A stretch of DNA of 64,000 nucleotides from Tetradesmus obliquus (Eukaryota > Chlorophyta > Chlorophyceae > Sphaeropleales > Scenedesmaceae), in contig CP126197.1 of NCBI GenBank assembly GCA_030272155.1, positions 1,178,001-1,242,000 on the forward strand, read 5' to 3'. The notes below the pieces were generated by a model. It was not told where the DNA came from and made no database searches. It was given only the letters and a program-made list of their open reading frames with translations. The position numbers and the translations under genes were made by a program. Shown here piece after piece: positions 13,047-60,928 of this stretch. The first letter of the stretch is position 1, and every line of letters starts with the position of its first letter.

Positions 13047-14302
13047 ATGATCACCTACTGTCCTACCTGCTCGAACATGCTTCTAGGTAGGTACTCTTTG
13101 GAAGCAGTACAGCCCTGCAAAGCATGTGTTGTAGGTTCTTGAAGCAGTTGCTAGTGAGCATTGTGGACTTCAGCTTGTCCTGCAAGCAGCATCAGGCAAG
13201 CAGGCTGCAGCTAAGCAAGCTGGACATGCTCACCTGTTGCTGCTGATGCTTCTGTGCCATGCAGTGGAGCTTAGTGACTTCACAAAGGAGCTGAGGTACT
13301 GCTGCCAGACCTGCCCATATGTATACAAGATAGACCGCAAGGTGTGTTGACAGCAGGCTGCAGGAGCAGCAGTGGCATGGCAGTGCTCTGGCAGTAGTAG
13401 CAGCAGCAACAGCACAGAGAGTAGCACAATGTAGCGCCACCTTACCGGCATCTTGCAGCTCGAGTCTGCATCTCAAGGGTGCTGGCATGGTCAGCTACTA
13501 CGTAGGTCTGCACTTACCAGCAACAGCCTGCTACTGCAGCAGGGGACTCTGTGCACAGCAAGCATCCCCACCATGCCCTTGGGCACACATGGCAATAACC
13601 ATCGCTCCACCTGGTGTCTCGTGTGGTTGATGTTGCTGCTGCTGTGCTTTCCGCTTTGCTGCTGCTGCCAGGTGTCCAAGCATGCCAAGCTAGCCAAGAA
13701 GCAGGTGGATGATGTGCTGGGAGGGGATGAGGCGTGGAAGAACGTGCAGAAGACAGAGGGTGAGCAGGAACAGCAGCAGCAGCAGCACCCGCAGCACCCG
13801 TAGCCTCAGCAGCAGCAGCAGCCTCAGCAGCAGCAGCAGCAGCCTCAGCAGCAGCAGCACCAGGAACTGGAGCAGAAGCAGACGATGGGAAGGACAGACT
13901 GTGGCTGTGGTTACAACGGCAGGCCAGCCCAAGAAGCAGTCTGGCATGCACTGTGCTGTCTTACAGTGCTTGCAGGAAAGCAGCTGGGCATGCACTGTCA
14001 GGCAATATGTCCCAGCATGGCGGATGGAGTCACTGCTGCGGCTGTAGCAGAACTATCCATGCATGCTTTGTGCTTCCTGCTTCTTCGATAACGCCGCACA
14101 TGCAACACAGCCTACACGCTTGACACTGCCTGCTGCCCGCTTCTGCTGTGTGGCCTGCTGTGTCATGTTTGCTGCAGTGAACTGCCCCTCCTGCTCCCAT
14201 GGCTACGCCTACTTTATGGAGGTGCAAACTCGCTCAGCAGACGAGCCAGCGACCATCTTCTACAAGTGCGTGGACTGTGGATACCGCTGGAAGGAGGGCT
14301 AG
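13047..14302 (+). CDS. RPC10: DNA-directed RNA polymerase III subunit RPC10 (C11-type)
   Basis: Exons 13047-13086, 13265-13341, 13672-13759 and 14178-14302 join in phase to 109 aa, against 108 aa for the human protein. The N-terminal zinc ribbon starts MITYCPTCSNMLL and continues with CCQTCPYVYKIDRK. The linker has VDDVLGGDEAWKNV. The C-terminal TFIIS-like ribbon has CPSCSHGYAYFMEV, QTRSADEPATIFYKC and CGYRWKEG. QTRSADEP carries the acidic Asp-Glu pair needed for RNA cleavage in this family. The subunit supports transcript cleavage, termination and reinitiation by Pol III in the nucleus. Introns are gtaggt, gtgtgt and gtgagc type. Intron 3 carries a long CAG-rich stretch (13769-13862). All key cysteines are present and it looks functional. 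Confidence 0.95.
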
Positions 14303-14440
14303 GCACTTTACTTGAACAAAGCAGGCTGCAGAGGCGTTTGTCATGGTTTCAGCTGCAGCAGGGCTCAGCAGGCAAGATGCTACATTGTTCTTGGAATGTG
14401 CTGACCGCAGCAGCTGCTGCCTCTGGAAGGAGGGCTAGGC
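14288..14440 (+). repeat. duplicated end of the RPC10 last exon
   Basis: The terminal coding stretch with the stop (tggaaggagggctaggca, from 14288) recurs at about 14424, and both are followed by acaaagcag. Spacing is about 136 bp. The second copy lies in the 3' UTR or spacer. Confidence 0.6.
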
Positions 14441-15655
14441 AGCCAACAAAGCAGTGCTGCTTGGCTTCTCGCTGCATGGCACAGCAGCGATTTAAGCTGT
14501 GGTTGCAGCTGGGCGAAGCAGGCCAGCCGGCAGCCATGTGTTGGTAGTTGTCAGCCGTGGCTGATCCCGCAGCGGCAGGCAGGCTTGCGGCCGTTTTGCA
14601 TGGGCAGTCGTCGCAACTGGTTGCAGCAGGGGCTTGGGAATCTGCCGATGTTGTGTGATGATGCTGTACAGCAGCAGCAGTACAGCACACATGTGTGCAA
14701 CTTGCCTGCAACTTGAAGGGCGGGCCCTGGCGCGCTGTGGCCATAATTGGAATGATGCCGGCTGGTTCCAGCGCCGCACGCCATCACAGCAGTCAAATGG
14801 CCTTATTGGTGATGGTGGGTTCACCTTATTGTCATACGGCAGCAGCGGCACTATCCCATGGAGCCAGAATGGTTTGGTGTGTTGTGTGCTGTTTCTTGCT
14901 ACTTGTGGGGCAGCAGGGTGCGGTTCAGCAGCGTTGCCTTCCCTAACAGCAGCGTGTTGCATCTCATTATGCTACAACTATGGCTTCACTTGCGCCTCTG
15001 CTCAGTATGCTTCATCTGGAGGTGTGCATGGCGCTTGCAAGCGTCACCTTTGTGATCAAGTGGCATGCATGCTCCATACTACCTGGCTATCACCTGCTTG
15101 GGGATCCGCTTAGGTTGCATTGATTGTGTTGTTTGATCTCTTGCCGGCTTGCAGTTCCAGCGATGTGTGCTGAGTTCCGCACAGCTTTGCTGATGACCAA
15201 GGCCAGGCACGCCCTGTCACCGCACAGTGACAATAGCTAAAGACCGGGACCCTTGCGCAGCCGATTGCGCTGTCAAGCAAATGGTTGGCTTGATGAGTTT
15301 CATGTGTTCAGCTTCAAACCGTCTAATATGGAAGCACATGTAAATGCCGTCTCCATCTTCAGCCACGGTTCATACTCGCCAGCACTCTGTAGTTGCCTCT
15401 GTGAAACAAACACCTCTGATGCTTAGTTTTTGGTTGAAGGATATAGCAAGGACGGATGCTGGGAGCCGTGCTGCCTAACTAAAAAGGCGCGGCAACGCAT
15501 CCTAATCTTACATCGGCCTTGCACTGAACAATACCTCGACTGAAAGGATAAAGTGTATGAGCTGGTTCTTTTGAAGTGCTCGGCAGCGGGTGTAGCGACT
15601 TTTGCCGCAAAGTACCAGTCAGCAGTCCCTGACAGCTGCTGGCAGGCAACACACA
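14303..15655. other. intergenic, possible unrecognised exon near 14.7-15.0 kb
   Basis: About 14730-14890 reads open on the plus strand with a non-repetitive composition (DAGWFQRRTPSQQ, LLSYGSSGTIPWSQN), faintly like a beta-prism lectin repeat. I could not join it to other exons in phase. The remainder up to 15655 is presumed promoter and 5' UTR of the GH16 gene; I see nothing definite in it. Confidence 0.2.
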
Positions 15656-18600
15656 ATGGCTCCTGGGCGGGAGCACTTGATGCTTCTGCTTTTGGCAGCC
15701 CTAACAACATGTGCTGCTGGACAAGCCCCGATAACACCGACGGGGGGCTACCTTGGCTGCTTCAACCTGTCGCAGCTGCAGGTCGACAGTGCAAAGGTAA
15801 GCACAGGTGCTGCACCATCAGGCTGCTGCATTTGATGTTCATCCACATCACAGCAGAGAAGACAGTTAGCAGCAGATGCTCAGGAACATGCTTAACTAGA
15901 ACACCCCTGCTGGCAATGTGGCCCCCAACCATCACGCATGAGCTGAGCATCACCGCCTGCTGCCTTGCCCGCTGCTGCCTCACGTGTCCTGCAACAGCAC
16001 GCCAAGTTCTCCAGCTCAACCATCAGCAAGTGCATGCCCTTCTGCAACAGCGAGCAGCACACCATGCATGTTGTCAGCCACGCGTTCGACTGCTGGTGCA
16101 TGACGCTCATCCCTGATGAGTCAGCAAGGCTGCCAGCCACTGCCTGCAGCAGCGGTGGCAATGGGGTGGCAGTGTTCTACCGCTTCAAGGGTGAGAAATC
16201 ATGACTCAACGATGCAGCGACAGCCTGTCTAAAGTGATTGGAGATGGCAGCAACTGTGCAGCAACGGCGCTGCCAGCAGCACGCATGCTACAGGCTGCTC
16301 ATTAATTGAGTGATAACTCACTGCGCGATGGTTTGTTTCTTTCAGCGGCAGTATCTGCGGCAGCGGTTGACGACCTGCAGCTTGCAGGAAAGCCATGCTT
16401 GCACAGCATGCAGCAGCAACCAGTTGCCAACTGCAGCATGCTTGCACAGCATGCAGCAGCAACAAGTTGCGGCAGCTCACACCCTCCCATGCATGACATG
16501 GACTGTTCAACGCCGGCCTGCGACTTGCGCTGCGCTGCAACCTCACTTCTGTTGCAGAAGCAAACAAGCAGATGTGCAGGCTGGCTCCTGTGGCCCTCAA
16601 GAAGGATAGCTTCGACATCCACTACAATGAGCACCATGCCAGCTTTGTTGATAATGACAGCGGCACACCAGAGATGATCCTTGAGCAGCAGGGGCCTGAC
16701 GGCATACGGCTGGCCACAAATGACGGCATGCACCTGTATGGGCAGTTCCAGGTCACCGCCAAGATTGCAGGAGCCTCTGGCGTTGTGACAGCGTTTTATG
16801 TGAGTGCGCCGCACCGCTGCATTGTTTGCTGCTTCTTGGTGAAATGGAACATGTGTTGTACAGCAGGCTGCAGGAATGCCTGAAAGTGACCTGCACGGGC
16901 TTGAAGATTTGAGCTGCATGCTTTTCCTGCAAGGCATTTGATCTGTCTGTTACCGTGTCCAATCAGAATAGGTTACTTACAGTAGGGCCTACGTAACATC
17001 TAACAGCCACACATTACTGTGTGTAAGGGGGTGACGGGGTGAAGGTATGCTGTAACCAAGGCTGTGTGCCAGAAGCTGCCTGGGCACCCAGGCCCAGCAG
17101 ATACCACGCATGCAGTGCAGCAGTGCTGCCACTGCAGCCGCACACATACCAACTGCCCCACCATACCTCACCAGACTAAGACACCACACCCAGCCTTGCC
17201 GCTGTTGCCAGAGGGAGGGAGGGAGGGCAAAACTACAAAAGCAGCACACGAACGATTGTGCTGCAATGAAAAGCAAGCAGTGTTTTATGAACTGCTGCGA
17301 CCTTACATACTCACACGACGCAACTAGGGTAACAATGACAATAACATGTGCACTACCACACAGATCCATCAGGATATGGTTGTGCCACATCCTACACAAT
17401 CACAATGCACGCCTAGGAGGCGCGAATCTGCACTTCTTGCATGACAGTGTGGTGACAGCAGCTGTGCAATGGCATGCAGTGCTGCTGTTACTGTTGCGCT
17501 GATACACTTCACAACCTGCCGGCTGCGCCTGCAGGTGCGCAGCACAGACACGTATACACTGGCCAACAAGGACTCGCCTTTCCACGAGATTGACATCGGT
17601 GAGACAGCAGCCGAATTGCAAATGCGCGCCAGTGTCTCCTTGTTGACGCGAGTCAGCACTGCTTCCTGCAGCAATGCTTGAGCAGGTGGTAGCTGCCTCA
17701 TCCAGTACCCTTTGCCACAAAGGTTTAATCGATTACTGGAGGACCGCCTTCCGCCCAGCCACCTCACATCGCCTACCTGTCTACCCAACTCCTGATCTGT
17801 GCTGTGTTGCGCTGTGGAACCCACTGCAGAGTTCTTGAACGGCAACCCCGCCCCCCAAAACAGCATCTGGCTCAATTCCTACAAGAACGGCATCTCTGGC
17901 GGCGAGACGCTGGTCAAACCTGCTGACTACCAAGCGCTGCTGGGGCTGGTGCCTGGCCAGACTGCAGAGAACACCTTCATCACGTATGGCTTCAACTGGC
18001 AGCCGGATTATGTGATGTGGTCGCTGAACGGCAAGGCGCTGCAGAAGCGGCTGTACGGACAGTGAGTGGCGGCATACGCTCTGTACATGCCAGAAGTTGC
18101 AGGTGCTTTTATGTTGGTTCTTTAGGTGGCAGGAGGTGTGCAGGGACAGAAGAGGCTGCATAAGCCGTGAACGCTCCTGTTGTGCTGCTATGATACTGCT
18201 TCAACGTGCTGCTGTTTCTGCAAACGATGCGATCTTGTGTCTGCCTGCTGCCGCGCCTTGCAGGAACATCACGTGGACTGAGATGGACGGCAGGTCGTAT
18301 TGGTGAGTGGCACTGCCGGCTGTGTCCTATTGGCAGCTGTCCTGCAGGCAGTCAATGAGGCAGAGATGTCATGATAACCGAAGTGGAAGTATCTGTATGG
18401 CTGTGAAGTCGAACCTTGCATGCACTGCGGCTGCTTGATTGGCAGTGGCTGCTCGGCAAGCGCTTGACGTCAACTGCTTCCCCCACTGCCACCCACTTTC
18501 CGTCGCAACTCCACTGTGTGTTGCCGCTGCCAGGCGCTCGTACCGCCCTCCCTCAGCTGCCAGCCACATCACCTTCAGCATGTGGAGCGATGGTGACCAG

Positions 18601-20807
18601 ACGCGTGCCTTTGGTGGCAAGCTTGACCTGTCAAAGTCGCCCTACCGCAGCCGCTTCACTGGCATGAAGCGCATCCTGTGTGATGAGCCGCTGCCGTCAG
18701 AACCTGCTGCAGCAGCTGCTGCGCTGGGCCCGGCCTGGCTGTTTGGCAGCAGCAGCAGCAGCAGCAGCAGCGGCGGCGGCAGCTCCAGCCCCAGCAGCAG
18801 CAGCAGCAGCAGCAGTGCGGTCAGGCTGCCAGAGGTGCTGGGAGCAGCAGGCAAGACCCTAACAACAGCTCAGGTGTCAGCGGCAGCAGCAGCAGCAGGT
18901 GCAGCAGACGTGTTATGTCTGGAGAAGTGGAAGGGGCAGGTCAGTGGGAGCTCCCTGGGCTTCTCCCGTGTAGCAGCATACCCCTGCAGTAGCTCCAGTA
19001 CTATCTGGGTGTTTGACCGGTCAACGGGCCTGCTGCGCGACAGCAGTACCCCTGGCAGCTGCCTATCACAGGTCGGGTACGATCCAGCAATTGCACCATG
19101 CAGCCATGCCGCAGCAGCAGCAACAGTGACAGAGGCAGCGGCAGCGGCCACCGCAGGGCAGGCGCCGCCCGAGCAACAGTGGCATTTGACAAGGGAAGGC
19201 AAGCTGCGGAGTGCCAGCGGGCTGTGTGTTGGCATGGGCGGCCTGCAAAGCAGGCCATATCTTACGAATGTGATGTGTGGCTCTAGCCAGGAGTTGGTGT
19301 GGAAGGCAGGAGGTGAGTCCCCTGGTGCACTGCTTGTGCATTGCTTGTGCACTGTTGTATATTACTAATGTGACGTGTGGCTCTAGCCAGGAGTTGGTGT
19401 GGAAGGCGGGAGGTGAGGCCCCTGGTGTATAGCTGCTACCCGCTCTACCTGCTGCGCTTGATGACACGCTACTGGTGTTTGCAGGCTGTGTACAGCTTGC
19501 GCAAGAGCAGTATAAGCGGTGCCTGTGTCGCATCACGCATGCACGTGTGCAGTGCAGAGAACAGGAGGATGTGCTGGCAGCTGCCTTTGCTTGCAGCTCA
19601 GCTGCTTACTGCAAGCAAGTGCTAGAGTGCTCACTGGCGTCTTCCCATGCTGTTTGCTGCCTGCAGAAGCCAATGTGCTGAGCTACCTGGCTACTGCCAA
19701 GCCTCTAGTAACCTCCGCACACGAGGCAACAGGCTTCTGCCTGCACCCCTCCAGCCGCGGCCCTTTGCTTGTCAAGCCATGCCTGCCGTCTGCTGCTGCC
19801 AACCCCAACTGGAAGTTTGACCCCAGCAGCAGCCAGATTCTGCTGAAAGGCAGCCGCAGCCCCACCCTGTGCCTCTCAGGCAGTGCAAGTGAGGAGGGAG
19901 TGGCAGTGGCAGTGGCAGTGGCAGCGTGTGCAGCTGGAGCCAAGGAGCAGCAGTGGCAGCTGAGTGCTGCGAGGCATCTGCGCAGTGCAGGAGGAGTGTG
20001 CTTGGGGCTGGGTGCGTCAGGGGAGGTGGCGGCAGTGGCATGTGGCAGTGCAACTGAGGCTGTCTGGTCCTTTGGAGGTAAGTGCGAGATGCGAGCGTCG
20101 GCAGACTGTGGCTAATTGCAAGGCAGCGGCAGTGCTGCGCGCGAGCTGAATGACAGCTGCATGTGCTTGGTGCATGCCTCACAATCCATGTGTTGAAAAA
20201 CGGAGGGCACGTGGTTGCATATACGCAGTCTAGCAATGCACTCGGCTGCATCCTTTTTGCTGTTTGTGGCCTCATACAGATGCATGGCTTATGCAAGTGC
20301 ACAAGCTCATTGTGTTGCTGCTCGCTCTGAATACATGCAGGCGACTCGCCTCTGCATTCACTCAACCCAGACAGGACCCTAACTCAAGCAAATGGCCAGC
20401 ACACCACACCACTGGCTGTCAGCCTCGACACGTCCCCTGCAGCTGTCTCTGCAGCACTGGCCCTCAAGCCTGCCAGCAGCAGCAGCAGCAGGAACGCCAT
20501 CAGCTGGACGTTCAACGAGACGTATGCCGGCTCCGGCGTCGGGCAGCTGGCCGCTGCTGCAACGCACGCAGCAGGAGGCCATGCCGGCATGTGCATGACG
20601 AGCCGCGATGACGTGCAGGCCGTGCAGCTGTCTCCCTGCCAGCGCAAGGGCCAGGCGCTGTTTAAGGCACAGCTGTGGATGTGGTTTGGCGGGCAGCTGA
20701 AGAACTCTGGTGACGGCAAGTGCCTGGCGCAGGGGCCTGGGGGCCAGCTGCGGCCGGTGTCGTGCCCGGCTGTGAAGGAGGCTGACAAGCTGCTGTGGGC
20801 TCTGTGA
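15656..20807 (+). CDS. secreted WSC - GH16 - ricin-B-like lectin protein
   Basis: Nine exons join in phase to about 855 aa: 15656-15796, 15998-16190, 16558-16799, 17535-17598, 17830-18061, 18264-18302, 18534-19312, 19667-20077 and 20341-20807. Residues 1-22 form a signal peptide (LMLLLLAALTTCAAG). A WSC domain follows at about 30-110 (GGYLGCF, CMPFCN, FDCWCM). The GH16 beta-jelly-roll covers about 112-350. Its catalytic HEIDIEF motif (E210, D212, E214) is split by intron 4. Downstream FNWQPDYVMWSLNG and MWSDGDQT are typical of the family. After a Ser-rich linker come ricin-B/CBM13-like segments with EQQWHL, NPNWKF and EQQWQL. GH16 enzymes hydrolyse or transglycosylate beta-glucans and related wall polymers; with two carbohydrate-binding modules, a cell-wall role is likely. 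The exact substrate cannot be told. Confidence 0.88.
19255..19430 (+). repeat. tandem copy of exon 7 end plus 5' splice site (GH16 gene)
   Basis: The last ~55 bases of exon 7, with the donor and first intron bases (ctctagccaggagttggtgt, ggaaggcaggaggtgag), recur 100 bp downstream (donors at 19313 and 19413). The second copy lies inside the intron and keeps a functional-looking GTGAG donor. Confidence 0.75.
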
Positions 20808-20917
20808 GTTGCGGCGGAATTGGTTGGCACTGATAGTTGCTTGGATATGGTCATGTTTTGCGTGTCTGCTGCCAAGCTGCTGTGAGAGAGGCTGACAAGC
20901 TGCTGTGGGCTCTGTGA
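20778..20917 (+). repeat. duplicated stop-codon end of the GH16 gene
   Basis: The terminal coding sequence ggctgacaagctgctgtggg followed by ctctgtga occurs at 20781-20807 and again at 20890-20917, about 110 bp apart. The second copy is in the 3' UTR. Confidence 0.7.
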
Positions 20918-21931
20918 TGTTTGGCGCAGGGGAGGGTGTTGATGATTGCTTGGCAGTGATCCTTGTTTCGGAAGTGCTGAACAGCAGCATACCTGGTGGT
21001 TTTGGGCCAGCCGCTACACAACAGCAAGATGTGCAAGTACATGTACAACCATGTACATGGTTGGATGATGTCTGTACATGCCCAGCGCTGAGAGGGCAGG
21101 TTGCTTTGTGAACAGCGTAGCACGGCTACGTCTCTTCCAGCAGAAAGGCTGTTGCTTGATCATGATATTGATCAGCATTCAGATGTGGTGTACATTGAAA
21201 TCTAGCATTGTATGTGGGGGGCAGATTGAACACAAAAAGAACTACGAGTAGAGCTCGTACGTTGATACACAGCCAGTTGCAGTGGCCATACAATGGCCCT
21301 TGCCTGAAGCTGAGGTCACCAATGGTTGCAGAGTTGAGACTCCCTAGTGCATTGCGCTGAAAGCTGCGCATTCAGTTGGCCACCTCCTGTATAGGGCGTT
21401 GTGGCGTGATGAGGCTGCTGGTGAGGCACTGCCTCTCGCTCCCGGCAATTGGGTTCGCTCAATTGTGCTGTGTGTGGCGAGCCAGTAGGATTTCGCCCCC
21501 CCTGGTAACAACAAAGCTGCGCATTCAGTTGGCCATGCCCTAACCAAGGTGCACTTGAAACTATCAATATTGTCCATTACAGTTGTGAACCCTGCACACG
21601 TGATCATATCCTGTACGAGAATATTCTCGTATTAATGCGTGTAAGATGTCTGCAAGACAGGTTCCTTTGCAACCAAGCAGCACTTCGGTAGATCACATAC
21701 GCAGCAACAAGGAACAGTGCTGTTATCTACCGACAATACAGGAACAAGACATCGGCTGTGTGATCACAGCACAGATCGGGTCAGGCTGACTGCTAACACG
21801 ATGGCAGTGTGATGATGCTGATTAGGAGCGTCATGATTAACACCACAGGAAGCCTCTACACAACAAACACGCAAGCTGCCACGTAAACCCTCAAACCAGC
21901 ACCCAAAGATGAGCTCAAGCAAAGCTCCAGC
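20808..21931. other. convergent intergenic region
   Basis: This lies between the ends of the plus-strand GH16 gene and the minus-strand giant gene. It contains the duplicated gene end noted above and a complete short dispersed element at 21383-21512. No gene is supported. Confidence 0.5.
21383..21512 (-). mobile_element. SINE-like 130-bp element with 23-bp target-site duplication
   Basis: A 23-bp direct repeat (core agctgcgcattcagttggcc) flanks this stretch at 21360-21382 and 21513-21535. The insert carries gtgaggcactgcctctcgct and gagccagtaggatttcgccc, also found at 4489-4607 and in part at 790-850. A long target-site duplication and no coding capacity fit non-autonomous target-primed retroposition. 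Orientation is assigned from the putative B-box-like ggcgaaatcc and is uncertain. Confidence 0.7.
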
Positions 21932-24900
21932 TCAGCTGCAGACTCGCTGAGCTGCTTGATGCTGCTTGAGCCACCCAGGCAGCTGCTGCTGCTGCTGCTG
22001 GCTGCTGCTGTCGGCACTGTGCCACAGACACAGCGCCTCCAGCAGCGCTGTTGCTGCTCCGCGCTCCCCCAGCAGCAGTGCCTCCTCATGCTGCTGCACC
22101 AGGGGCCTGCAGGCAGAGCGGCAAGCAGACACGGAGATAGCGCGTGAGCAGCTTGATGAGTTGGCAACAGCGGCAATCACAGTGTGCGGCCGCTATGTCT
22201 GCTACGTCAAAGGCGCGTGCATGCGCTGTGCAAGCACACCTGTGCCATTCACCATCAGCACTCACCCTAATGCTAGGCCAGGCAGGTGGCGCACTGCCTT
22301 CAACGCCGCATTCGCAGCCCGCGCAGTGCCAGTCAGCGGCTGCCATGTCAGCTAGCTACATCAAAGGCGCATGCATGCACTGTGCAATCATACCCTCAAC
22401 ATAATCAACATCAGCGCTCACTCTAATGCCGGGCCAGGCGGGTGTGGCACTGCTTCAAGCGCCAGTGCCACATTCGCTGCCCACGCAGTGGCGCTCAGCG
22501 GCCGCCATGTCTGCTAGCTACATTAAAGGCGCATGCATGCACTGTGCAATCATACCCTCAACATATTCTACATCAGCACTCACCCTAATGCCAGGCCAGG
22601 CAGGTGCCGCAAAGCTTGCAGCGCTAGTGCCACATTGGCACTCCCGTGCAACAGGTGTTGGCGCATGCAACCTTATCGACACTAAACAAAAAGATTTGAG
22701 CACTCACCCCAAAGCTAGCGCAGGCAGGTGCCGCACTGCCTCCAGCGCAAGTGCCACATTCGCTGCCCGCGCAGTGGCAGTAAGCGGCCGCTCAGTGACA
22801 CCAGCCACCGGCACAGCCGCCACTGCCGCTGCCACCTCACACAGCAGCACGCCAGATGCCAGGCTGGGCATGATGCTGGCAAAGCCTGCTGCCACGTCAG
22901 CGCGCGAGATCAGGTCCAGCGACTGCATCCAGCGCAGCAGCTGCTGCTCCAGGCTACGGCGCCATTGCAGATTGGCATGTTTGCGGGAGGCAGCATAGGC
23001 AAGCGCAGGCAGACAGCAAAACAGGGGCAAGGTAGCTGTGGGCAGGAGCATGTTGGCCAGCGCAGCAGCCTGTAAATGTATGCGTGCATATGTTAGGGCC
23101 AGCAGCAGAAAATGCAGTGGTGGGCCCCAGCTGGCGCAACTTCAAGCTGCCCTACTCGGCACAAGATCTGAACTGGTGAGTGCTGCAATGCGTGCTTATG
23201 CATGCATATGTCAGGTCCAGCAGCGGCAACAGCAGTGGTGGGCCCCAGCTGGCGCAGCTTCAAGCTGCCTTACTCAGCATGAGATTAGAGCAGGTGAGCG
23301 CTTCTAAGAAAATATATGCATGCATGTGTTAGGGCCAGCAGCAGCAATAGCAGTGGTGGGCCCCAGCTGGCGCAGGTTCAAGATGCCTTACACAGGACGT
23401 GCTTTGAGCTGGTGAGAGCTGCGCTGAATCTTGTGCTCGCCAGCAGCAGCAGCGGCGGCAGTGCTGAACCCAATGTACAGTTGAACACTTTGGCTTTGAC
23501 GATTCATGGCTTTCGATGCATGAAGCACATGTGACCAAGCTGGTGCCGTCGCCGCACATCAACCATCTTGGCCGCAACGTATGTCACCAACTGCATGGCT
23601 AAGACAGCAATAAGTGCAGCAGCAACCACACCATTTGAGGCTGTTGCGACAAGTTTCATGGGCCATACCCTGACACGGTTCAACTGCCCTGCTGTCACTG
23701 CAACAACTGAAATGTGCCACCGCAGCCTGGAGCAGCAGCATGCATGCAAATGCATCGCAGCACTCACCAGCTCAGGTCTCGTGCCGAGTAAGGCAGCTTG
23801 AAGCTGCGCCAGCTGGGGCCCACCAGGGGCCGCACAGTCAGCAGGCTGCTGCCACATCCAAAGCCTGCAAAGCCGGCACCCCCAGGCACTGCATCGCCTG
23901 CTGCTGCTGCCGCTGCTGCAGGAGCTGCTAGTGCTGGCAATGCTGCTGGACCTTTAGCATCCCGCTGCATGAGGCCAGCCTGCTGCTGCTTCAGACGCTG
24001 CTGTGGGTGCAGGCGGCGTGTAGCTACTGCAGGGCTGCTAGGTACTGGGCAGCGCTGCTGCAGCGCATACAGCAGGCCCCACATCGCCCCCGGCTCGCCT
24101 GCCAGTACTGCTTCCAGCAGCTGAAACAGTGCATGCTCCAGCACTGTGCCAGCTGGCAGCATGCTACAGCCCCAGCAGCAGCAGCAACAGCCGCCGCCCT
24201 GATCCTCACAGCAGCCGCTGGTTCCTGCTGCTGCTGCAGTGAAGCAGTCACAACAGACAGTAGTCAGCAGCTCTCCAGGGCCCATATTAGGGCTGCCAGG
24301 CCGCTGCTGCCGCCAGTCTGGCCAGCAGTCTGGCGAGCCTTGCTGCTGCTGCTGCAGCCGCCGCTGCCGCCGCGCACGAGGCGACGCACAAGAGTGCCTC
24401 GCAGCTGCAGCCGCTGCAGCAGCATCAATGATTGCTAGCGGCCCATTGCTGGTGTTCAGCTTGCTGACTGCTGCTGCGCTGCCCCAGTCAGGCAGCAGCG
24501 CAAGCTCCAGCTGGTCTCTGCTGGTGCTGTCTCTCAGCAGCAGCCTGCAGTTGCGGCTGGGGCTGCGGCATCTGCTGTGCTGCTGCTGCCTGCCCCTGCT
24601 CCTGCTTCTGCTCCTGCTGCCGCTCCTGCTTCGACTGCGGCTCCTGCTCCTGCCAGAAGGGCTGGCTGCATCTGCACGGGCCAAAGCTAGTGCCGCATGC
24701 CCCAACTGGTCTGGTGAGCTCGCCTGTAGCGCGTCTGCCCTGTCTGCCTCAGCAGCTGCTGCAGCCGCCGCTGCCGCAAACTCGCAGCCGACCATGCCTA
24801 GGTGTGCTGCGGCGTGCAGCAGGTTGTAGCGCGCAGTGGGGATGTCACGCACGGGCTGTGCTACAGCTGGCAGCGGGGTGCCAGTGAGTGCTGCTGCGAT

Positions 24901-26552: not shown

Positions 26553-26584
<32 letters not shown>

Positions 26585-27388: not shown

Positions 27389-27422
<34 letters not shown>

Positions 27423-34122: not shown

Positions 34123-34157
<35 letters not shown>

Positions 34158-34953: not shown

Positions 34954-34985
<32 letters not shown>

Positions 34986-44277: not shown

Positions 44278-44320
<43 letters not shown>

Positions 44321-48931: not shown

Positions 48932-50304
48932 CTCGACTGCCAGGTGTGCAACAGGAAAAGGAGGGCAGAGGCCCGCATTAGGCATGGCAGAAAATCATCA
49001 GCAGGGTAGCAGTGAGGATCATAATGCACTTCAGATGGTGTGCTCAGATGGTGTGCTCAGACCAGGGTGAAGCTCTGCAGCTGCCTCCACCGCAAAGCAG
49101 TGCCACCGCTTCCTATGCCATGCGCTACAGCAGCTCTGGGCCAACCGCCTGGCTTCTGGAAACCGATGCATTGGGCGGACTCCTTTGCTGATGCTGATCA
49201 TTAGCATACATGATACTGGTAGCTAGCATGCTGCAGATGGGGGTGCAGGCGGTGCTGGTGACAATCAGGCATGCTACTGCGTGAGGTTTCACGGCTGCCT
49301 TACACGCCATATGACACTGCTCAAAAAGCATGCTGTAACTAACCCCTAGCAGAGCGCTGTTTGGTGGGCACGAGCAGCATGTAATCACCCAGCTTGCATA
49401 ATCAATGGATTCCTAGACTACTTCGTGTTGCTGTGGCATTTCATACTACAGCAACCCTTTCCATGAGACCAGCAAATAGTCTTGCAGAAGAGTTGGCAGC
49501 AACTGCTGGCAAGCATCACAGGCAGCCGCTGCATGCTGACATACCACCAATGCTCAACTCCAACGCTCACCTGGTGGTGTTGTGGTGAAGCAGGGGCCAC
49601 CAAGGAATGGCAGTTGATGGCGCATGCACAGGAGCAAGGCAGGCCAGAGCAGGGCAGCACAGGTCAACATCAGTGTTGCATGCAATGAGCATTATTGTAT
49701 GCACACAAAATTCAGGAGGAGCAGGATGGTGATGTGGCACTCTTGTGTTGTCTTTTGGCAGCGCAGAGTGCACACACATATCAGCCTGTGCGCTGTGTGT
49801 GTGGCACTCTTGCATGCAACAAGTGGAGTGCAGAGTGTTGCAGCAACTTGCTGCAACAAAGCTGGCTGCAGCAAAATCCTTCACATGGATCTGAACCTCA
49901 GATGCCTCGCTGATTCTAATCAGTTGCAAACAAGCATGATGGTGGCTACCATGCGCCAGGTGGTGCTGCATGCGGGACCCTTAATCAGCAGGACTGCTGG
50001 GGCATGGGTTTTAGCGGCTGCTCCACACACAGTGGCAGGCCATGCATGTATGGCCGCCTTGCAAGCACACGCATGACTAACCTGCTGCTGTTGTGGGGAC
50101 GAGAGAAGAAGGAGGGTGGGAGCCATGAAGAGTACATGCAAGAAGGACACACGGACAAGGCACTCAGCAAAAGGTCAAACAAAGAAGCTTGCAACATGAA
50201 AGCACAGTGGCATGTTGTGGGTGCATGCAGTAGCACTGCTGGTAGCTGGGAAATGCTGCTCTCCATGGTTGCAGCAAGCTTGCTTGAATAGCAGCTGATG
50301 TGGG
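48932..50304. other. intergenic, contains duplicated segment R1 copy 1
   Basis: No gene is supported. The segment from about 49343 is repeated at 55374 (separate entry). Confidence 0.4.
49343..50215 (+). repeat. duplicated non-coding segment R1, copy 1
   Basis: It aligns along its length with 55374-56248: gctgtggcatttcatactac, agtcttgcagaagagttggc, taccatgcgccaggtggtgc, caaacaaagaagcttgcagc/aacatg. Divergence is visible to the eye, so it is older than the SET duplication. I see no terminal repeats. Confidence 0.6.
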
Positions 50305-51103: not shown

Positions 51104-51550
51104 ATGGCGTTGAGCGCCCTCATTAGCCTTCAAGGCAAATTGAGAGCTGCCACAGCTGTGCAGCAGCGCTGCTTCAGCAGCATGTGCAGCAGCAGCATGG
51201 CGTTGCTCAAAAGCAGCAATCTACCTGGGCAGCAAGGTGCGCCTCGTTTTACATTTAGGTGCCACAGCACAATGCAGCCAGCAGCCAGCATGTTCCTGCC
51301 AATAGCAGCACGTCAGCGGCCTTCAACACTACTTTCAAATTTGCTGCTTCGTCCAACGCATTTGCCTCATTTGCTCCTGCCTGCAGTGTGGACAGCATAC
51401 ATAAGAGATGCAACAGACCGCCTCGACGTTTTTGTCTGCAGGCAAGGTCAGCACAACCTTCTTCGCTTTAGCACCCTTCTGCAGCAGGCAGGTGCAGCCT
51501 GTCACTGGCGCAGCAAACCACAGCAGCAAACCACAGCAGCAGCGCAGTGA
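51104..51550 (+). CDS. hypothetical protein with organelle-presequence-like N-terminus
   Basis: The frame starts MALSALISLQGKLRAATAVQ then QRCFSSM, with Arg/Ser/Ala and no acidic residues, like a mitochondrial or plastid presequence. It stays open for 148 aa. A donor-like AAG|GTGCGC at 51237 and acceptors at 51258, 51386 and 51440 suggest it may really be spliced. Its end runs into the truncated SET copy, so it may be the 5' part of a chimeric gene. I recognise no domain. Confidence 0.3.
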   Translation: MALSALISLQGKLRAATAVQQRCFSSMCSSSMALLKSSNLPGQQGAPRFTFRCHSTMQPAASMFLPIAARQRPSTLLSNLLLRPTHLPHLLLPAVWTAYIRDATDRLDVFVCRQGQHNLLRFSTLLQQAGAACHWRSKPQQQTTAAAQ

Positions 51551-52881
51551 ATGCAGCTGTGCAACTGCACCAGCAGCACTGCCCAGGCGCGGAGGAGGAG
51601 ATTGGTGCGGCCACAGACAAAGCCGCAGCAACATCTGGACTAGGAAGCAGTAAGAGCAGCAGCGGCAACAGCAGCTGCTTTCAGCTTGTTGCAGGTGGGT
51701 TGGCTCTTGACTGGCTGATGCACTGCAGCGGCCAGCTTAGAGTGAGCTGATATGATATATACAAGCATTGATGTCAGGGTACGGCTGCTGAAACAGAGTG
51801 CCTGGCATAGACATGGCTAACCACAGCAGCACTGCAGGCAACGCGGCCGTGTGGCTGCACCAGCAGAGCAAGGAGGCTAGCGCGGCGCTTGAGGTGGTAA
51901 GGGATGACGCAGCAGCAGCTGCAGGGCTAGGAGGCAGCAGCAGCAGCAGCAGCTGCTGCTTTCAGCTAGTTGCAGGTGGGTTTGCTGCCTAATGGTTGGA
52001 TTTGCCCAAAGCAGAGTTGCAAACTCACGTAAAGTATGATGCTGTACAAGTAAAGGCTACACACATCAGCCAACTTCAGGGCATGCAGCACCCACCTTTG
52101 TGCCCTGCGCTGTGCTGCTGTCCTTGCCTTATTGAACCTTGCAACACTCATCGCCGTTTCCGACGCTAGGGTTTTACTTGCCTGCTGCTTCTGCTGCTGC
52201 TGTTTAATGTGCTGCCTCAGGGCCTGAAGGAGTTTCTGCTGGGGAGCAGGTCTGCATCAGCTATGGCAGCTGGCCAGCAGAGCCCTTCCTGCTGCTGTGG
52301 GGTTTTACCCCTTCCCCAAACCCTGCTGATGCAGTGGTTGTCTTCAGCAGCTTGCAGGACATGGCGGCGTGTTACTTTGACTATTTCAAGCTGACAGCTG
52401 GGGGCAATGGGCAGCAGCTGCTGCAGTGCGAGCAGCTGGGTGAGGCAGTGCAGCAGCAGCTGATTGCAGCAGGTAGCAGTAGTAGTAGTAGCAATGGGTT
52501 TGCAAACATGTCCGTTGATGCTGCTGGTGTTGACGGGCGGCTGAAAGTGGCCCTGAATGTGCTGCATGACGCCGCTGCATCTGCAGCAGCAGGCATGCTG
52601 CAGCGGCAAGCCAACAACAACAGCAGCAGCAGCAGCACACAGCAGCCGCAAGCAGATGCAGTAGGCCAATCGCAGCATGCCTGTCTGGCATCATTGGTTC
52701 GACAGGTGCAGCAGTTGAGGCTTGGTGAGCTTCTGGTGTACAGGCTGGGTGAGCTGGCTGACAACCTACAGCAATCTGCCAATGCATGTGCAGCAACAAT
52801 AGAGCGTTCGCAGGCGCAGCAGCAGCAAGCCGGTGTCAGCAGCAGCAACGGCAAAAGCAGCAGCAGCAGCAGCAACACCAG

Positions 52882-52913
<32 letters not shown>

Positions 52914-53035
52914 GGTACCAGCCATCTGCAGAGCACCTGCAGCTCATCCAGGCCTACTGCGCCAGCAAAGCAGCGCTGGCGCGGCAGCTGGCTGCAGGGT
53001 ACCCGATCAGGATGTCTGGTGTGTTCTTGGTCTGA
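51528..53035 (+). pseudogene. SET-domain lysine methyltransferase, 5'-truncated copy 1
   Basis: Retained exons: about 51528-51694 (exon a, LHQQHCPGAEEEIGAAT to FQLVAG), 51797-51975 (exon b, VPGIDMANHSSTAGNAAV to FQLVAG) and 52221-53035. The last exon joins in phase to give FQLVAG-PEGVSAGEQVCISYG, then WPAEPFLLLWGF and NPADAVVVFSSLQD. This is the catalytic end of a SET domain of the Rubisco-LSMT/SETD6 type, followed by its helical substrate-binding region with Gln/Ser inserts. The iSET part and N-terminus present in copy 2 are missing; homology to copy 2 begins abruptly at about 51528. Exons a and b are tandem duplicates. Confidence 0.6.
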
Positions 53036-53203
53036 TGCAGGAGCGTGTGGTGCATCAGCATATGCCATTGCCATACAACTCACTGAGTGACTGACTCAGT
53101 CAGTGAGTTCTAAGGTCCAGGCCACACATCTGAGGGCACAAGCCAAGTGTCGCCGCGTTGTGCGTTTGGCAAATACCACGGCTAGGTCTTTACTGATAGC
53201 GTG
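51528..53203 (+). repeat. segmental duplication, copy 1 (SET 3' half)
   Basis: It is near identical to 59416-61104, with differences limited to single bases, Gln/Ser repeat lengths, a 6-base insertion near 60278 and an 8-base repeat near 61003. Homology stops at tactgatagcgtg in both copies. Confidence 0.85.
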
Positions 53204-55373
53204 CTTGCTGCCTGGAGGCTGGACCGGTTGGTAACCAAAGTCAGCAGTGTCAGCTGCTGCCTGTCGCACTTGGCGGCCAGAACTGCACTCATACAACTGC
53301 TGGGCAGTAGTTCAGCTGTGGAGGAGTACAGGGCTTCACTCAAGCGTCAATGAACGTTTTTAGGTACTATCTAACTTTTCCAATGGAGAATAGCAGTGTC
53401 AGGCCGATCTGCCTAGCACTCACAGGCAGATTTGGCACTGCTAGAGCAAGGTCTAGCCAAGTACTTCACATACCTGCCCCTGTCAGTCACCAAAACAGAC
53501 CAAGAGGTCAATCAAAAGGTTATCGATTGGTTAACCATCGGTATAATCCACTCACAAGTCTCTCAAATGCAAAACTTGACTGTGCCATCCAGGGCGGGAG
53601 CAGCTGCCAGCTGTCACATCCACTTTCAGTCCCTGCCATGCACAGCAGTGGCTGCACTATGCAAAATGTGACACTATCTGCACAATGCACTCAGATAGGG
53701 CCCATCCACAGGCTGTAGCAGAGGGTAAGGACTATCCAAAGGACTACTTGCCCAAAAGTGCCCAAAAGTATGCATGGGCATCTAGTAATACATGAATTTA
53801 TATGCAAAGTTGATCTGTACTGTTGATTGACTGGCAGTTGACAAAAGCACAGTGGCAAGCCCAAAAGTGCCCAAAAGTGTTGGGCAAGTGTCTTGCCGTT
53901 CAGGCATAATTGTACATAATAAATTTAGTCTTCTTGTAAGCCATACCTTATCGGCATCGGCAACCGCGCCCCGTAACGGAGCGGAAACTACGACTATTAT
54001 TGCCTCTCTATTGGTGAGGGGTAGACGCCGTTCAGGCATGAGCTAAGGCGCCGCTTTTGTACAACAGCAGCACAACCATGCCACCCACGAGGACAAATAT
54101 TATCATCACCATCACCTCAACTCCTCAGGCTTTTCTGTGCCCCAACTGAGAACTTGGGCCAGCAGCTGAACGAGCCACAACCAGGGCTTTCAGCTCCAGA
54201 GCTGTCACCGCAGCTCTCCAGGCAGCCCAAAACCCCAACCAGCCCCAAAAGGGGGTGGGTGTCAGAGCTGCCCAACCATGCTTCAGCACGGCAGTGATGA
54301 GCAGCACCAAGGTCACCAACACCACCAGCAAGGGTGGGACCCAGCGAAGTACAGGGAAGTCCCCTGCGCAACATGACAAACTGATTCTTCATAACTCACA
54401 TGGGCTCATGCAACTGGTCGTGTGCAAGATACTGAATAGCGGTGGCAGCAGTGGCAACTTTACGGCAACAACAACCACACCAAACAACCTGCTGGCTATG
54501 TTGTTACAAGCAACACCCACACCACAGCAACACACCACAGCAACACAGAATGCACGTGGGGCCTGCATGTAACGGTATGCCTAATGACTGGGCAGTGGGT
54601 GTGGCCTTAATGAGCCTTGACATGCTCATGGTCACTGCCAAGAGCTCCTTTGGTCAACACACGCACCTGCCGCACAGTACACGGCCATGATATCATCCAT
54701 GGCAGTGCGCATCTTAGGCCCACCTGCAGGCAAGGCAGCAGGGGCATGCGAGAACACAGACGATTGCGGGAACAGGGGTGCATGTTGCAGGCACAACTGC
54801 ATGACATGCAGGAGGGAGTCATGAAGGGTTCATGCACAGGGGCGGGAAACGCAGCACGAGGCACGCAGTGTGCTGAAGAGCTTCACACAGGAGCCGCCAC
54901 ACTGCAGCGGCGCAGCAAAAGCAAAGCACCGATGCAGAATGCACAGGGCATGCTGCATGCTGCCTATGTGGTACTCTTGCTACTGGAGCATGTTGTACAA
55001 TCGCTGCTCCACATGCAGTGGCTGCTCATGGCCGAAAGCCTTGCAAGAAGCACCATCGCAAGCACAGCCGCAACCCACCTGCTGCTGCTGCCGCTCCTGC
55101 TGCTGCGCCTATTTAGGCAAATTGTTGAAATGGCGGCCATACATGACAGCCATGCACCACCAAAGAAGAACAGCAGTCACAGCACCAGGTGGAGTGTCAG
55201 CAGATCAATGGTGATAAGTGTGTGGTTTGGGGCGGTAGTGCAGGGCTGCCAGGTACTTGGGCAGTGTTCAAGCATGCCTCGTGACACTGCTCCATGAGAG
55301 TGCTGTTATGAAGAATGTCCTGGCAAAGCACTGCTCACTCTAGACTGCGGAAAAATCATCGCTGAAGGAAATA
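53204..55373. other. region between the duplicated blocks
   Basis: No confident gene. A short motif gcccaaaagt recurs four times at 53750-53880. One minus-strand hydrophobic open frame is listed separately. The frame at about 54617-55297 on the plus strand has no recognisable features. Confidence 0.3.
54125..54379 (-). CDS. possible small membrane protein
   Basis: An 84-aa open frame carries two strongly hydrophobic stretches (WVPPLLVVLVTLVLLITAVL and WGWLGFWAAW) and a hydrophilic tail ending LGHRKA. It has no family resemblance and no splice evidence. It may be chance; it is reported because the hydrophobic pattern is unlike the antisense poly-Leu shadows of CAG repeats. Confidence 0.2.
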   Translation of the reverse strand: MSCCAGDFPVLRWVPPLLVVLVTLVLLITAVLKHGWAALTPTPFWGWLGFWAAWRAAVTALELKALVVARSAAGPSSQLGHRKA

Positions 55374-56248
55374 CGCCCTAGCAAAGCGCTGCTTGGTGGG
55401 CACGCGCAGTGTGATAACCCAGCTTGCATAATCAATAGGTTTATACTCCATGCTGCTGTGGCATTTCATACTACAGCAACCCTTCCCATGGGACCAGCAC
55501 ATAGTCTTGCAGAAGAGTTGGCAGCAACTGCTGGCATGCGCCACAGGCGGCCGCTGCATGCCAACATGCCACCAATGCATGCGACTCCAACGCTCACCTG
55601 GTGCTGTTGTGGTGAAGCAGGGCCGCCAAGGAATGGCAGTTGATGGCGCATGCACAGGAGCAAGGCAGGGCAGAGCAGGGCAGCACAGGTCAACATCAGT
55701 GGCGTATGCAATCAGCATTATGCATGCAGCATTCAGGAGTGCAGGATGGTAATGTGGCACTCTTGTGTTGTCTTTTGACAGCGCAGAGTGCACACAAAGA
55801 TTGACCTATGCAGAGTGTGTGTGGCACTGGTGCATGCTATGATTGGGAGTGCAGAGTGTTGTGGTTTTATGTTGCTGCAACATAGCTGGCTGCAGCAAAA
55901 GCCTTCACATGGATCTGAAATGCAGTTGCCTCGCTGATTCTAATCGGTTACAGACAGCATGAGGGTAGCTACCATGCGCCAGGTGGTGCTGCATGTAGTG
56001 CTCTTAATAAACAGGACTGCTGGGGCATGGGCTTTAGCAGCTGCTTTACAAGCAACTGCAAGCAACGCTGGTTTGGCAGCCTTGCAAGTACATGCATGAC
56101 TCACCTCCTCCTCCTCCTGCTGCTGCTGCTGCGGGACGAGAGAAGAAGCCAGGTGGTAGCCATGAACAGCACATGCAAGGACACGTGGGCAGGAGATCAG
56201 CAAATGGTCAAACAAAGAAGCTTGCAGCATGACAACACAGTGGCTAGC
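55374..56248 (+). repeat. duplicated non-coding segment R1, copy 2
   Basis: It matches 49343-50215 throughout, in the same orientation and in the same position relative to a minus-strand coiled-coil gene and a plus-strand SET gene downstream. Confidence 0.6.
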
Positions 56249-58216: not shown

Positions 58217-58252
<36 letters not shown>

Positions 58253-58254
58253 AG
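57496..58254. other. upstream region of SET copy 2, exons not resolved
   Basis: The N-terminal SET exons should lie here or farther left, but I could not place them in phase. A (CTG)12 tract at 58217-58254 ends in the acceptor of the first exon I can support. A duplicated 25-30-bp stretch (tgctagcaacgaggc, near 57567 and 57610) is present. Confidence 0.3.
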
Positions 58255-60928
58255 GCAGTGCACAGGCTGCAGTCTTCCGTAGAGCTCTGCTTTGCTGAGC
58301 AGCAGCAGCAACTTGCAGCAATTGGGTGCAACTGGCAGGACTTCCTGTGGGCGGTGCAGGTGGGGCCTGGCACGGCTCAAAGCACCTCATGTTTGCGCGT
58401 ACATTGCATGCTTTTTTCAAAACCTGCGTGCTCAACCTCTGGTGATTGGCCCATATTAATGGTTGCAAGTGGGATTGTGGAATCTGCTGGAGAGGCCGGG
58501 CCGGGGCGGCAAGCACACTCGGATTCATGTGTGCTTGGCTGTGGGGTCTCTGTGTGGATGGGAAAAAACCCCAGAGCCGCTGACCTGCTGATGCATCAGC
58601 ATCAGCCATTATGACATTGTCTTTGCACTGGCTTCTTTGTGTCCCTTATGTAGGATACGGTGCGTATCCTGTTGCTGATCCAAACTGCCCATGGCTTTAT
58701 TGGCATGAATTGTGTGCTACTGCAGGTGCTGCACAGCAGGTGCACAAGTGTGTTCATCAATTCGTACTGGCCATGGCCACAATGGCTTGGCATTCGACAT
58801 CAATTCTTTTGCTTGCTGCTGCAGGTGCTGCACAGCAGGTGCTTCCTTGATGCTGCCTCATCAATACTGGCCATGGTTCCAATGGCTTGGCATCTGACTT
58901 TATCTCTGTGCTTGATGCTGCAGGTGCTGCACAGCCGGTGCTTGCTGGATGCTGCCTCAAGCTGCCGTGTGGCAGTGCGTAGACATGGCTTGCACTGGCT
59001 CGCCGGTGTCCCTTGTGTATGTGGTGCACATCCTGTTGCTGATCAGCACTGCCCATGGCCCCACACATTGCCTCATGCCGCATTGAGTGGTGTGCTGCTG
59101 CAGGTGCTGCACAGCAGGTGCACATGTGTTCATAATCATTACTGGCCATGGTTACATCAGCTTTGTGTTTGACTTCATCTCTGTGCTTGCTGCTGCAGGT
59201 GCTGCACAGCAGGTGCTTCCTGGATGCTTCCTCAGGCTGCCATGTGGCTTGCACTGGCTGGCTTCGATCCCTTGTGTAGTCGGTGCACATCCTGTTGCTG
59301 ACCAGCAATGTCCATGTGCATAATCTGTGTGCTGCCGCAGGTGCTGCACAGCAGGTGCTTCCTGGATGCTGCCTCAGGCTGCCATGTGGCAGTGCCTGGC
59401 ATAGACATGGCCAACCACAGCAGCAGCGCAGCGAATGCAGCTGTGCAACTGCACCAGCAGCACTGCCCAGGCGCGGAGGAAGAGATTGCTGCGGCCACAG
59501 ACAAAGCCGCAGCAACATCTGGACTAGGAAGCAGTAAGAGCAGCAGCGGCAACAGCAGCTGCTTTCAGCTTGTTGCAGGTGGGTTGGCTCTTGACTGGCT
59601 GATGCACTGCAGCGGCCAGCTTAGAGTGAGCTGATATGATATATACAAGCATTGATGTCAGGGTACGGCTGCTGAAACAGAGTGCCTGGCATAGACATGG
59701 CTAACCACAGCAGCACTGCAGGCAACGCGGCCGTGTGGCTGCACCAGCAGAGCAAGGAGGCTAGCGCGGCGCTTGAGGTTGTAAGGGATGACGCAGCAGC
59801 AGCTGCAGGGCTAGGAGGCAGCAGCAGCAGCAGCAGCAGCAGCAGCTGCTTTCAGCTAGTTGCAGGTGGGTTTGCTGCCTAATGGTTGGAGTTGCCCAAA
59901 GCAGAGTTGCAAACTTACGTAAAGTATGATGCTGTACAAGTAAAGGCTACACACATCAGCCAACTTCAGGGCATGCAGCACCCACCTTTGTGCCCTGCGC
60001 TGTGCTGCTGTCCTTGCCTTATTGAACCTTGCAACACTCATCGCCGTTTCCGACGCTAGGGTTTTACTTGCCTGCTGCTTCTGCTGCTGCTGTTTAATGT
60101 GCTGCCTCAGGGCCTGAAGGAGTTTCTGCTGGGGAGCAGGTCTGCATCAGCTATGGCAGCTGGCCAGCAGAGCCCTTCCTGCTGCTGTGGGGTTTTACCC
60201 CTTCCCCAAACCCTGCTGATGCAGTGGTTGTCTTCAGCAGCTTGCAGGACATGGCGGCGTGTTACTTTGACTATTTAAAAAGCAAGCTGACAGCTGGGGG
60301 CAATGGGCAGCAGCTGCTGCAGTGCGAGCAGCTGGGTGAGGCAGTGCAGCAGCAGCTGATTGCAGCAGGTAGCAGTAGTAGTAGTAGCAATGGGTTTGCA
60401 AACATGTCCGTTGATGCTGCTGGTGTTGATGGGCGGCTGAAAGTGGCCCTGAATGTGCTGCATGACGCTGCTGCACCTGCAGCAGCAGGCATGCTGCAGC
60501 GGCAAGCCAACAACAACAGCAGCAGCAGCAGCACACAGCAGCCGCAAGCAGATGCAGTAGGCCAATCGCAGCATGCCTGTCTGGCATCATTGGTTCGACA
60601 GGTGCAGCAGTTGAAGCTTGGTGAGCTTCTGGTGTACAGGCTGGGTGAGCTGGCTAACAACCTACAGCAATCTGCCTATGCATGTGCAGCAACAATAGAG
60701 CGTTCGCAGGCGCAGCAGCAGGAAGCCGGTGTCAGCAGCAGAAACGGCAACAGCAGCAGCAGCAGCAGCAGCAACACCAGCAGCAGCAGCAGCAGCAACA
60801 GCAGCAGGTACCAGCCATCTGCAGAGCACCTGCAGCTCATCCAGGCCTACTGCGCCAGCAAAGCAGCGCTGGCGCGGCAGCTGGCTGCAGGGTACCCGAT
60901 CAGGATGTCTGGTGTGTTCTTGGTCTGA
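58255..60928 (+). CDS. SET-domain lysine methyltransferase (Rubisco-LSMT/SETD6-like), 5' exons missing
   Basis: Exons: 58255-58359 (AVHRLQSSVELCFAEQ, NWQDFLWAVQ), 59341-59578 (VLHSRCFLDAASGCHV, VPGIDMANHSS, ending FQLVAG) and 60111-60928, with a tandem alternative exon b at 59681-59865. FLWAVQ followed by VLHSR, then the NHSS substrate/SAM-site motif and GEQVCISYG with the catalytic Tyr, give the order of an iSET-SET core. The last exon adds the helical substrate-binding domain, interrupted by Ser/Gln tracts. The family methylates lysines on Rubisco, ribosomal or nuclear proteins. Exons a and b both end in phase 1, so only one fits a single message. The 58360-59340 intron is swollen by copies of exon a's start. 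N-terminal exons upstream are not resolved. Confidence 0.7.
58725..59400 (+). repeat. six tandem copies of a 3' splice site plus exon start
   Basis: The unit ctgcag|gtgctgcacagcaggtgc, usually continuing ttcctggatgctgcctca, starts at 58725, 58825, 58924, 59104, 59199 and 59341. The last is the real exon. Copies are about 95-180 bp apart and keep the acceptor AG. Between them a second shared stretch (cacatcctgttgctgatcag) also repeats. Confidence 0.85.

Follow-up and report, generated by a model that had tools for sequence, protein, structure and literature searches.

Tandem copies of exon ends in introns of Tetradesmus obliquus and their probable exchange with working ends

Exon-end copies in the window

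The window studied here is a stretch of 64,000 nucleotides (nt) from the green alga Tetradesmus obliquus (positions 1,178,001 to 1,242,000 of contig CP126197.1 in the GenBank assembly GCA_030272155.1), in which several genes carry direct copies of an exon end, together with its splice site or stop codon, in the adjacent intron or just past the coding region. The exon end that belongs to the gene model is referred to as working and its additional copies as spares; each repeat unit includes a part shared with the exon (the core) and, at splice junctions, an intron part. An initial annotation of the window had named six such arrays, and all six were found where it had placed them, beyond chance. 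As for its gene names, Pfam supports GH16 and the TFIIS-type zinc ribbon of the RPC10-like gene (as it does CLP_protease, SNF2/Helicase_C, and COX15), whereas Pfam gave no match for the SET-like protein and matched the BAP31-like protein to BAP31 only below the cut-off. “SET-like” and “BAP31-like” are therefore labels that come from the initial annotation and from sequence motifs.

The simplest array lies in the BAP31-like gene, where the gene-finder model and the reading frame place working exon 2 at 39211 to 39297 of the plus strand, with the donor GT at 39298. It consists of three 115-bp units (39244 to 39588), each made of 54 nt of exon end and 61 nt of intron, with donor GTs at 39298, 39413, and 39528, the latter two being spares. 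A 701-base query across this region has its own locus as the sole match in the genome. The GH16 gene, also on the plus strand, has copies at two of its ends. On the donor side (19258 to 19434), GTs at 19313 and 19413 lie 100 bp apart in two 70-nt copies with 93% identity, and at the stop end (20769 to 20926) the last 39 coding nucleotides are copied 110 bp downstream. Here, the copies start at 20769 and 20879, the stop codons occupy 20805 to 20807 and 20915 to 20917, and the likeness runs exactly up to the TGA. The stop end of the RPC10-like gene is copied 136 bp downstream (14287 to 14441, plus strand; starts at 14287 and 14423); this copy is short, 19 nt, but it is one of only three places outside the listed arrays at which any of the 54,420 18-mers tested recurs at a comparable distance.

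On the minus strand, the giant gene contains four exon-end copies (22180 to 22791) with donor-like GTGAG at 22707, 22583, 22421, and 22265, and GTGAGT or GTGAGC is retained in all four. The predicted exon overlaps the copy at 22699 to 22791, with the model donor at about 22736 instead of the GTGAGT at 22707. The SET-like gene (plus strand) has the only acceptor-side array among those named: its intron part (58623 to 59340) holds five spare copies of the acceptor and exon start, and the six exon starts fall at 58726, 58825, 58924, 59104, 59199, and 59341. The working exon (59341 to 59578), with the open frame VLHSRCFLDAASGCHVAVPGIDMANHS, begins at the last copy.

Excess of copies at exon ends

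The larger sample comprised 344 kb of T. obliquus sequence, i.e., the 64-kb window and seven further 40-kb blocks from seven contigs, and genome-wide searches covered 104.66 Mb in 17 contigs. Gene models came from a purpose-built hidden Markov model (HMM), which was trained on the same 344 kb, used sequence only, and labeled 15% of it as exon, 51% as intron, and 34% as neither. Counting direct repeats of at least 40 nt that are 35 to 700 bp apart, we found 79 arrays, many of which represent an exon end with its splice site copied into the adjacent intron. As many as 64 of the 79 overlap predicted exons, one of them by a single base. However, units of 120 bp in introns of approximately 300 bp often reach a junction by chance, so that the overlap alone was not used as proof and rates per segment were compared instead.

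For this comparison, a copy similar to a 51-nt query was sought within 1 kb. Such copies were found downstream of 54 of 285 donor ends and upstream of 51 of 292 acceptor ends, compared with 3 of 119 exon middles, 145 of 2452 intron segments, and 36 of 1872 intergenic segments; reversed queries at donor ends found no copy (0/285). The initial annotation had made its proposal dependent on an enrichment of repeat units at splice junctions, and across the 344 kb such an enrichment is seen. Only 1 of the 577 exon ends has an inverted copy. It happens to be located in the window, where three 118-bp units (23074 to 23422, plus strand) carry, inverted, a stretch of 23738 to 23825 from the minus strand; the stretch is at a predicted exon end of the minus-strand gene, and the units lie some 320 to 750 bp away. 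With spares no longer counted as exons, at least one spare was present in 37 of 258 introns, and their median length was 563 nt versus 309 nt in the 221 introns without spares (p = 2.5e-6), in agreement with the earlier suggestion that the copies enlarge introns.

The density of spares can be high. In a ClpP-like gene (C1 block, 18400 to 22600; C1:1018400-1022600), they are found at 7 of 8 exon ends, from the exon-2 donor to the last acceptor of the model, with up to four spares per end, and a RAD54-like gene in the C4 block, at C4:1530500-1533500, has one donor end with five spares. For the analysis of individual ends, 86 groups were reduced to 70 by dropping near-duplicates and groups whose working end the HMM did not call exon. 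In 54 of these 70 (53 splice-site groups and one stop-codon group), the working exon reaches at least 20 nt past the copied part, so that most copies are of exon ends only. Without the other 16 groups and the stop-codon group, 53 remained (30 donor and 23 acceptor) with 93 spares; two junctions were moved 4 nt by hand to a GTGAG site. The 53 still include group 65, whose copies are probably genuine repeated exons, and groups 66 and 67, whose spares lie 909 and 468 nt away, respectively, and probably reflect the repetition of protein domains. Separately from these groups, the C8 block contains two adjoining arrays whose unit measures 144 bp (29466 to 31189; G000:C8:2029466-2031189); both lie outside predicted genes.

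Structure of the units

The units are of similar size on both sides of the intron. Where the nearest spare is no more than 160 nt away, its distance is 98 to 151 nt in the 24 donor groups and 80 to 145 nt in the 17 acceptor groups; adjacent copies are spaced by 124.5 nt (standard deviation, 14.9; 48 donor pairs) and 123.6 nt (standard deviation, 17.1; 30 acceptor pairs). The exon part measures 28 to 80 nt at donors (mean, 49) and 28 to 93 nt at acceptors (mean, 47). It is shorter than a uniform distribution would give (Kolmogorov-Smirnov p = 1.6e-5 for donors and 7.9e-5 for acceptors), which we do not use as a sign of a junction-seeking mechanism, since branch-point requirements, the length of exons, and detectability have the same effect. 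The initial annotation described the duplications as anchored exactly on the junctions. The units do straddle exon ends, but the junction lies inside the unit, 28 to 93 nt from the exon-side breakpoint in the 41 groups just mentioned; it is where the surviving similarity stops, as opposed to the edge of the unit.

That stop is abrupt. Since a query that includes the junction could itself create a sharp edge, the profile was rerun with the query kept off the junction (65 exon ends, 121 spares), and the drop persisted. On the donor side, similarity is 0.81 to 0.93 in the queried exon stretch, 0.65 at +4 to +7, 0.50 at +8 to +11, and 0.33 to 0.42 further into the intron, where unrelated junctions give 0.19 to 0.24; on the acceptor side, it is 0.80 to 0.92 in the queried stretch, 0.69 at -4 to -1, and 0.38 to 0.54 further upstream. 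Thus, exon parts are about 90% alike, and similarity falls steeply within approximately 10 nt of the junction. In this junction-free set, GT is present in 53 of 65 donor spares (GT or GC in 58 of 65) and AG in 36 of 56 acceptor spares. In the curated set, whose query took in 6 intron nucleotides, the donor positions +1 and +2 are retained at 0.95 and 1.00 and the acceptor A and G at 0.86 and 0.97. In these respects the initial annotation is supported: the copies recur, straddle exon ends, and mostly retain their splice sites. Copies at stop codons behave in a similar way, being alike up to the stop and no further in both GH16 and the C4 block (18925/19050); splicing cannot explain likeness of this kind.

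Variation among the SET-like loci

The core of the SET-like acceptor occurs in at least nine places in the genome, including the window. Seven loci were compared, with 6, 6, 6, 4, 3, 2, and 2 cores; their aligned stretches are 97.5 to 100% alike, or 91 to 96% in the case of L034. This last locus has two cores fewer than the window, with a clean 275-bp difference between cores. L031 and L032 are missing a stretch of 142 bp that separates the last spare from the working exon in the other five loci. In these two, the exon is preceded by the acceptor of the spare and the intron upstream of it, with the join inside the shared core, and the exon of L032 carries the variant residue of the spare (DASS for DAAS). 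The loci thus combine head-to-tail copies with copy-number differences between near-identical sequences, as minisatellites do, and these differences appear to arise through exchange between the repeats.

Five of the copies of this region, which occupies positions 58623 to 61104 in the window, are located on C3 (G000:C3:7392663, 7416885, 7441104, 7465018, and 7491592). Their spacing, 24 to 27 kb, suggests that units of some 24 kb are arranged there in tandem.

Probable duplication and exchange of exon ends

In our view, the arrays probably result from tandem duplication across exon ends followed by exchange between the spare and working ends. Local duplications of some 100 to 150 bp would extend across the end of an exon, be it a donor, an acceptor, or a stop codon, and they would be tolerated because the first donor, the last acceptor, or the first stop codon still yields the normal product, with the extra copies turning into intron or 3' untranslated region. 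Working and spare ends would then keep recombining within the shared exon part, by slippage, unequal exchange, or conversion. Such exchange would add or remove copies and could move the sequence of a spare, with its splice site, into the exon; it would also keep the exon part and the splice signal alike while the intron parts drift beyond recognition. In some arrays, such as ClpP-like exon 3 and RAD54-like copies 4 to 6, several units of core plus intron part are followed by a final core whose intron part differs, a form that unequal exchange between cores would produce.

Copying of the core alone, in which an exon end and its splice site are pasted into the neighboring intron by templated insertion and the intron parts were never homologous, is an unlikely alternative, although the cores do stop at or near the splice signal and intron-part similarity has p >= 0.05 in 35 of 78 adjacent pairs. 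In the other 43 pairs, it has p < 0.05 (z > 8 in 20 of the 78 and z of 3 to 8 in a further 18), so these arrays began as tandem copies of the whole unit, and young arrays, such as those of the BAP31-like gene and ClpP-like exon 3, still carry the entire unit; the latter array has five copies of a 118-bp unit with 98% likeness. In addition, pairs with half-decayed intron parts have cores that are 0.90 alike, compared with approximately 0.78 predicted by neutral aging.

The same comparison bears on a neutral account, in which tandem duplications arise anywhere, persist where splicing hides them, and decay with a single copy under selection. This account, which we regard as quite improbable, would benefit from the geometry that favors units reaching a junction and from the even decay of some arrays; also, the differences between exons and spares are distributed over the three codon positions as 80:72:177, with positions 1 and 2 near the value for a free spare. 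However, two simulations of neutral decay (random sequence, uniform ages, three indel ratios, and a detection rule like the real one) gave identities of 0.60 to 0.68 at +12 to +15, where 0.40 is observed. Among pairs whose cores are at least 0.93 alike, 17 of 39 have an unalignable intron part (z <= 3), as do 9 of 24 when one member is the working copy, versus 0 of 573, 0 of 452, and 1 of 342 in the simulations with the three indel ratios. Such pairs mean that, as the intron part grew older, the exon part either retained its likeness or was renewed.

Use of the spares as alternative or mutually exclusive exon ends under selection has little probability as the general explanation. It would account for the excess of third-position differences between the exon and its nearest spare (43:37:121 by codon position, i.e., 60% at the third, p = 7e-5 against the 46% expected for a free spare, an expectation that rises to as much as 51% if GC-rich third positions are roughly allowed for), as well as for the mostly intact splice dinucleotides of the curated set. 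The changed codons of the nearest spares include 100 synonymous and 72 nonsynonymous changes but no stops, and in RAD54-like spares the core, about 60 nt long, begins at or close to an AG and is followed by GTGAG. Nevertheless, such use would require another splice site at the core's inner edge, which several arrays lack (judged by eye and uncounted), and adjacent copies are spaced by a multiple of three in just 17 of 78 pairs, a marginal deficit (p = 0.03) found chiefly on the donor side (8/48). When each exon end is represented by a single copy, 213 amino acids of the ClpP-like protein can be aligned to the solved structure 7eko_L with no gap, as can 150 amino acids of the RAD54-like stretch, assembled across three exon joints, to 1z3i_X. 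The families thus call for the one-copy product, with no room for a spare and no need for an extra intron in either gene, although some transcripts might still include a spare. Third positions within cores differ at only about 0.2 per site while the intron parts are often unalignable, which is too little for protein-level selection alone and rules out selection on spares as the sole force. Finally, splicing has no bearing on the copies of stop-codon ends.

The birth of introns through tandem duplication of AG|GT segments, which the initial annotation had proposed might be under way in the window, is highly improbable: some acceptor cores do start with the proto-splice site CAG|GT (SET-like, ClpP-like exon 4, and RAD54-like), but the units hold both exon and intron sequence and span an existing junction, so that the intron predates the duplication and now contains the copies, and, as noted above, the one-copy proteins of the two genes checked require no new intron.

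Duplication followed by exchange also has a possible consequence for the spares themselves. Because a spare can become the working end, harmful changes in it would be exposed, and selection could act on spares because they can be swapped in. We tentatively propose that copies of exon ends that lie unexpressed in introns may be under purifying selection, as frequent contraction would expose a spare as the next working end; the odds of this are, in our estimate, somewhat below even. Differences among the spares are likewise concentrated at third positions (44:52:85, p = 1.4e-4 against one third), and the copies of stop-codon ends, alike only to the stop codon, would point the same way as selection through exchange.

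Several observations weigh against duplication with exchange or against selection on the spares. The half of the adjacent pairs that have no remaining intron-part homology would look the same if only cores had been copied. Some enrichment at exon ends would arise in any case, given that duplications within exons are removed, exon parts stay detectable longer, and 120-bp units in introns of about 300 bp often reach a junction. Copies also occur on the opposite side, i.e., upstream of 30 of 285 donor ends and downstream of 23 of 292 acceptor ends, partly because the HMM called some spares exons. Some spares in the junction-free set lack the splice site, in part owing to misplaced junctions, which are more numerous in that set. 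The third-position excess is moderate and uneven, with groups 0, 12, 44, 45, and 58 looking neutral, and groups 65, 66, and 67, which were counted among the 53, may not be exon-end spares; spares farther from the exon do hold stop codons, as seen in the ClpP-like gene. Among the SET-like loci, L030 to L032 appear to be out of frame further on and therefore may be nonfunctional, and they share sequence with the window only from about the fourth core, so that the difference between six and three cores is not a clean contraction.

Other repeats in the window

Within the SET-like gene, a 290-bp tandem duplication (59391 to 59876, plus strand) includes an exon part and the donor; its halves, 59391 to 59589 and 59681 to 59876, are 75% alike. 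A partial copy of the 3' part of this gene, 97.4% alike, is found at 51526 to 53203 of the plus strand and includes the 290-bp duplication (51526 to 51986). A 900-bp segment is duplicated 6 kb apart with 83% identity (49316 to 50211 and 55344 to 56244), and perfect tandem repeats with a 13-bp period, 2.3 to 2.5 copies each and differing in sequence, occupy positions 49031 to 49061, 51510 to 51541, and 54518 to 54547. Near the beginning of the window (1964 to 12146), three tandem blocks (about 1964 to 4172, 6129 to 8303, and 9885 to 12146) are 70 to 73% alike and contain Gln/Ser-rich frames with a repeated motif like QQVAAMAALLQLKRP. On the minus strand, positions 25139 to 37384 encode a 4081-residue open frame that is very rich in runs of Gln, Ala, and Ser.

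Relation to known systems and implications

Two well-known kinds of repeats resemble these arrays. Minisatellites consist of local direct copies of a long unit whose number shifts by unequal exchange and gene conversion; in contrast to them, the tract shared in T. obliquus is an exon end, so that contraction alters the splice site and the exon end that are used. Introners and introner-like elements, which are responsible for large-scale intron change in algae and fungi, represent one sequence family at many loci, whereas the T. obliquus arrays copy their own exon. In the genome search, the RAD54-like and ClpP-like cores match only their own arrays, and the SET-like core matches at least nine places; the seven that were compared are all copies of one region.

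It is well established that introns can arise by tandem duplication, as described in a review (PMC3443670) and in reports on the potato RdRp gene (PMC4974935) and Drosophila (PMC2891723). As in those cases, short local duplications within genes multiply splice sites in T. obliquus, and in the potato gene, too, the duplicated piece crosses an intron-exon boundary (PMC4974935). A tandem segment with splice-site sequence is present here too, but in the two genes checked no new intron lies between the copies. The published cases yield a new intron, whereas the T. obliquus intron preexists and grows; the T. obliquus arrays differ further in having up to six copies, in affecting many exon ends of one genome, and in being alike in the exon part alone. 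According to Rogers and Bendich (2025), direct repeats of 4 to 30 bp (mean, 11.4) occur at or near both intron borders (PMC11782384). Direct repeats at intron-exon borders are common to both systems, but the T. obliquus copies differ, each being about 50 nt of one end inside the adjacent intron. A literature search of partial coverage found no report of recurrent exon-end copies inside green-algal introns, and the word intron is absent from the main text of two genome papers on Scenedesmaceae/Sphaeropleales.

Duplications across exon ends thus recur far beyond the window, and they are probably coupled to exchange between spare and working ends. In Table 1 of one genome report, the mean intron of T. 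obliquus is 462 nt long versus 230 to 302 nt in three other Sphaeropleales and 270 nt in Chlamydomonas (PMC5966456), and exon-end duplication is one possible source of these long introns. Gene finders may call spare ends exons, as did the HMM used in this work. Intron growth and the movement of splice sites are usually inferred from rare single events; a single genome with many arrays of differing age and with near-identical gene copies makes the rates of duplication, exchange, and splice-site replacement measurable. If the spares are indeed under selection, an intron would store splice sites and coding ends in a reserve that recombines and is maintained by selection, and the exon ends of this alga would evolve by swapping throughout the genome.

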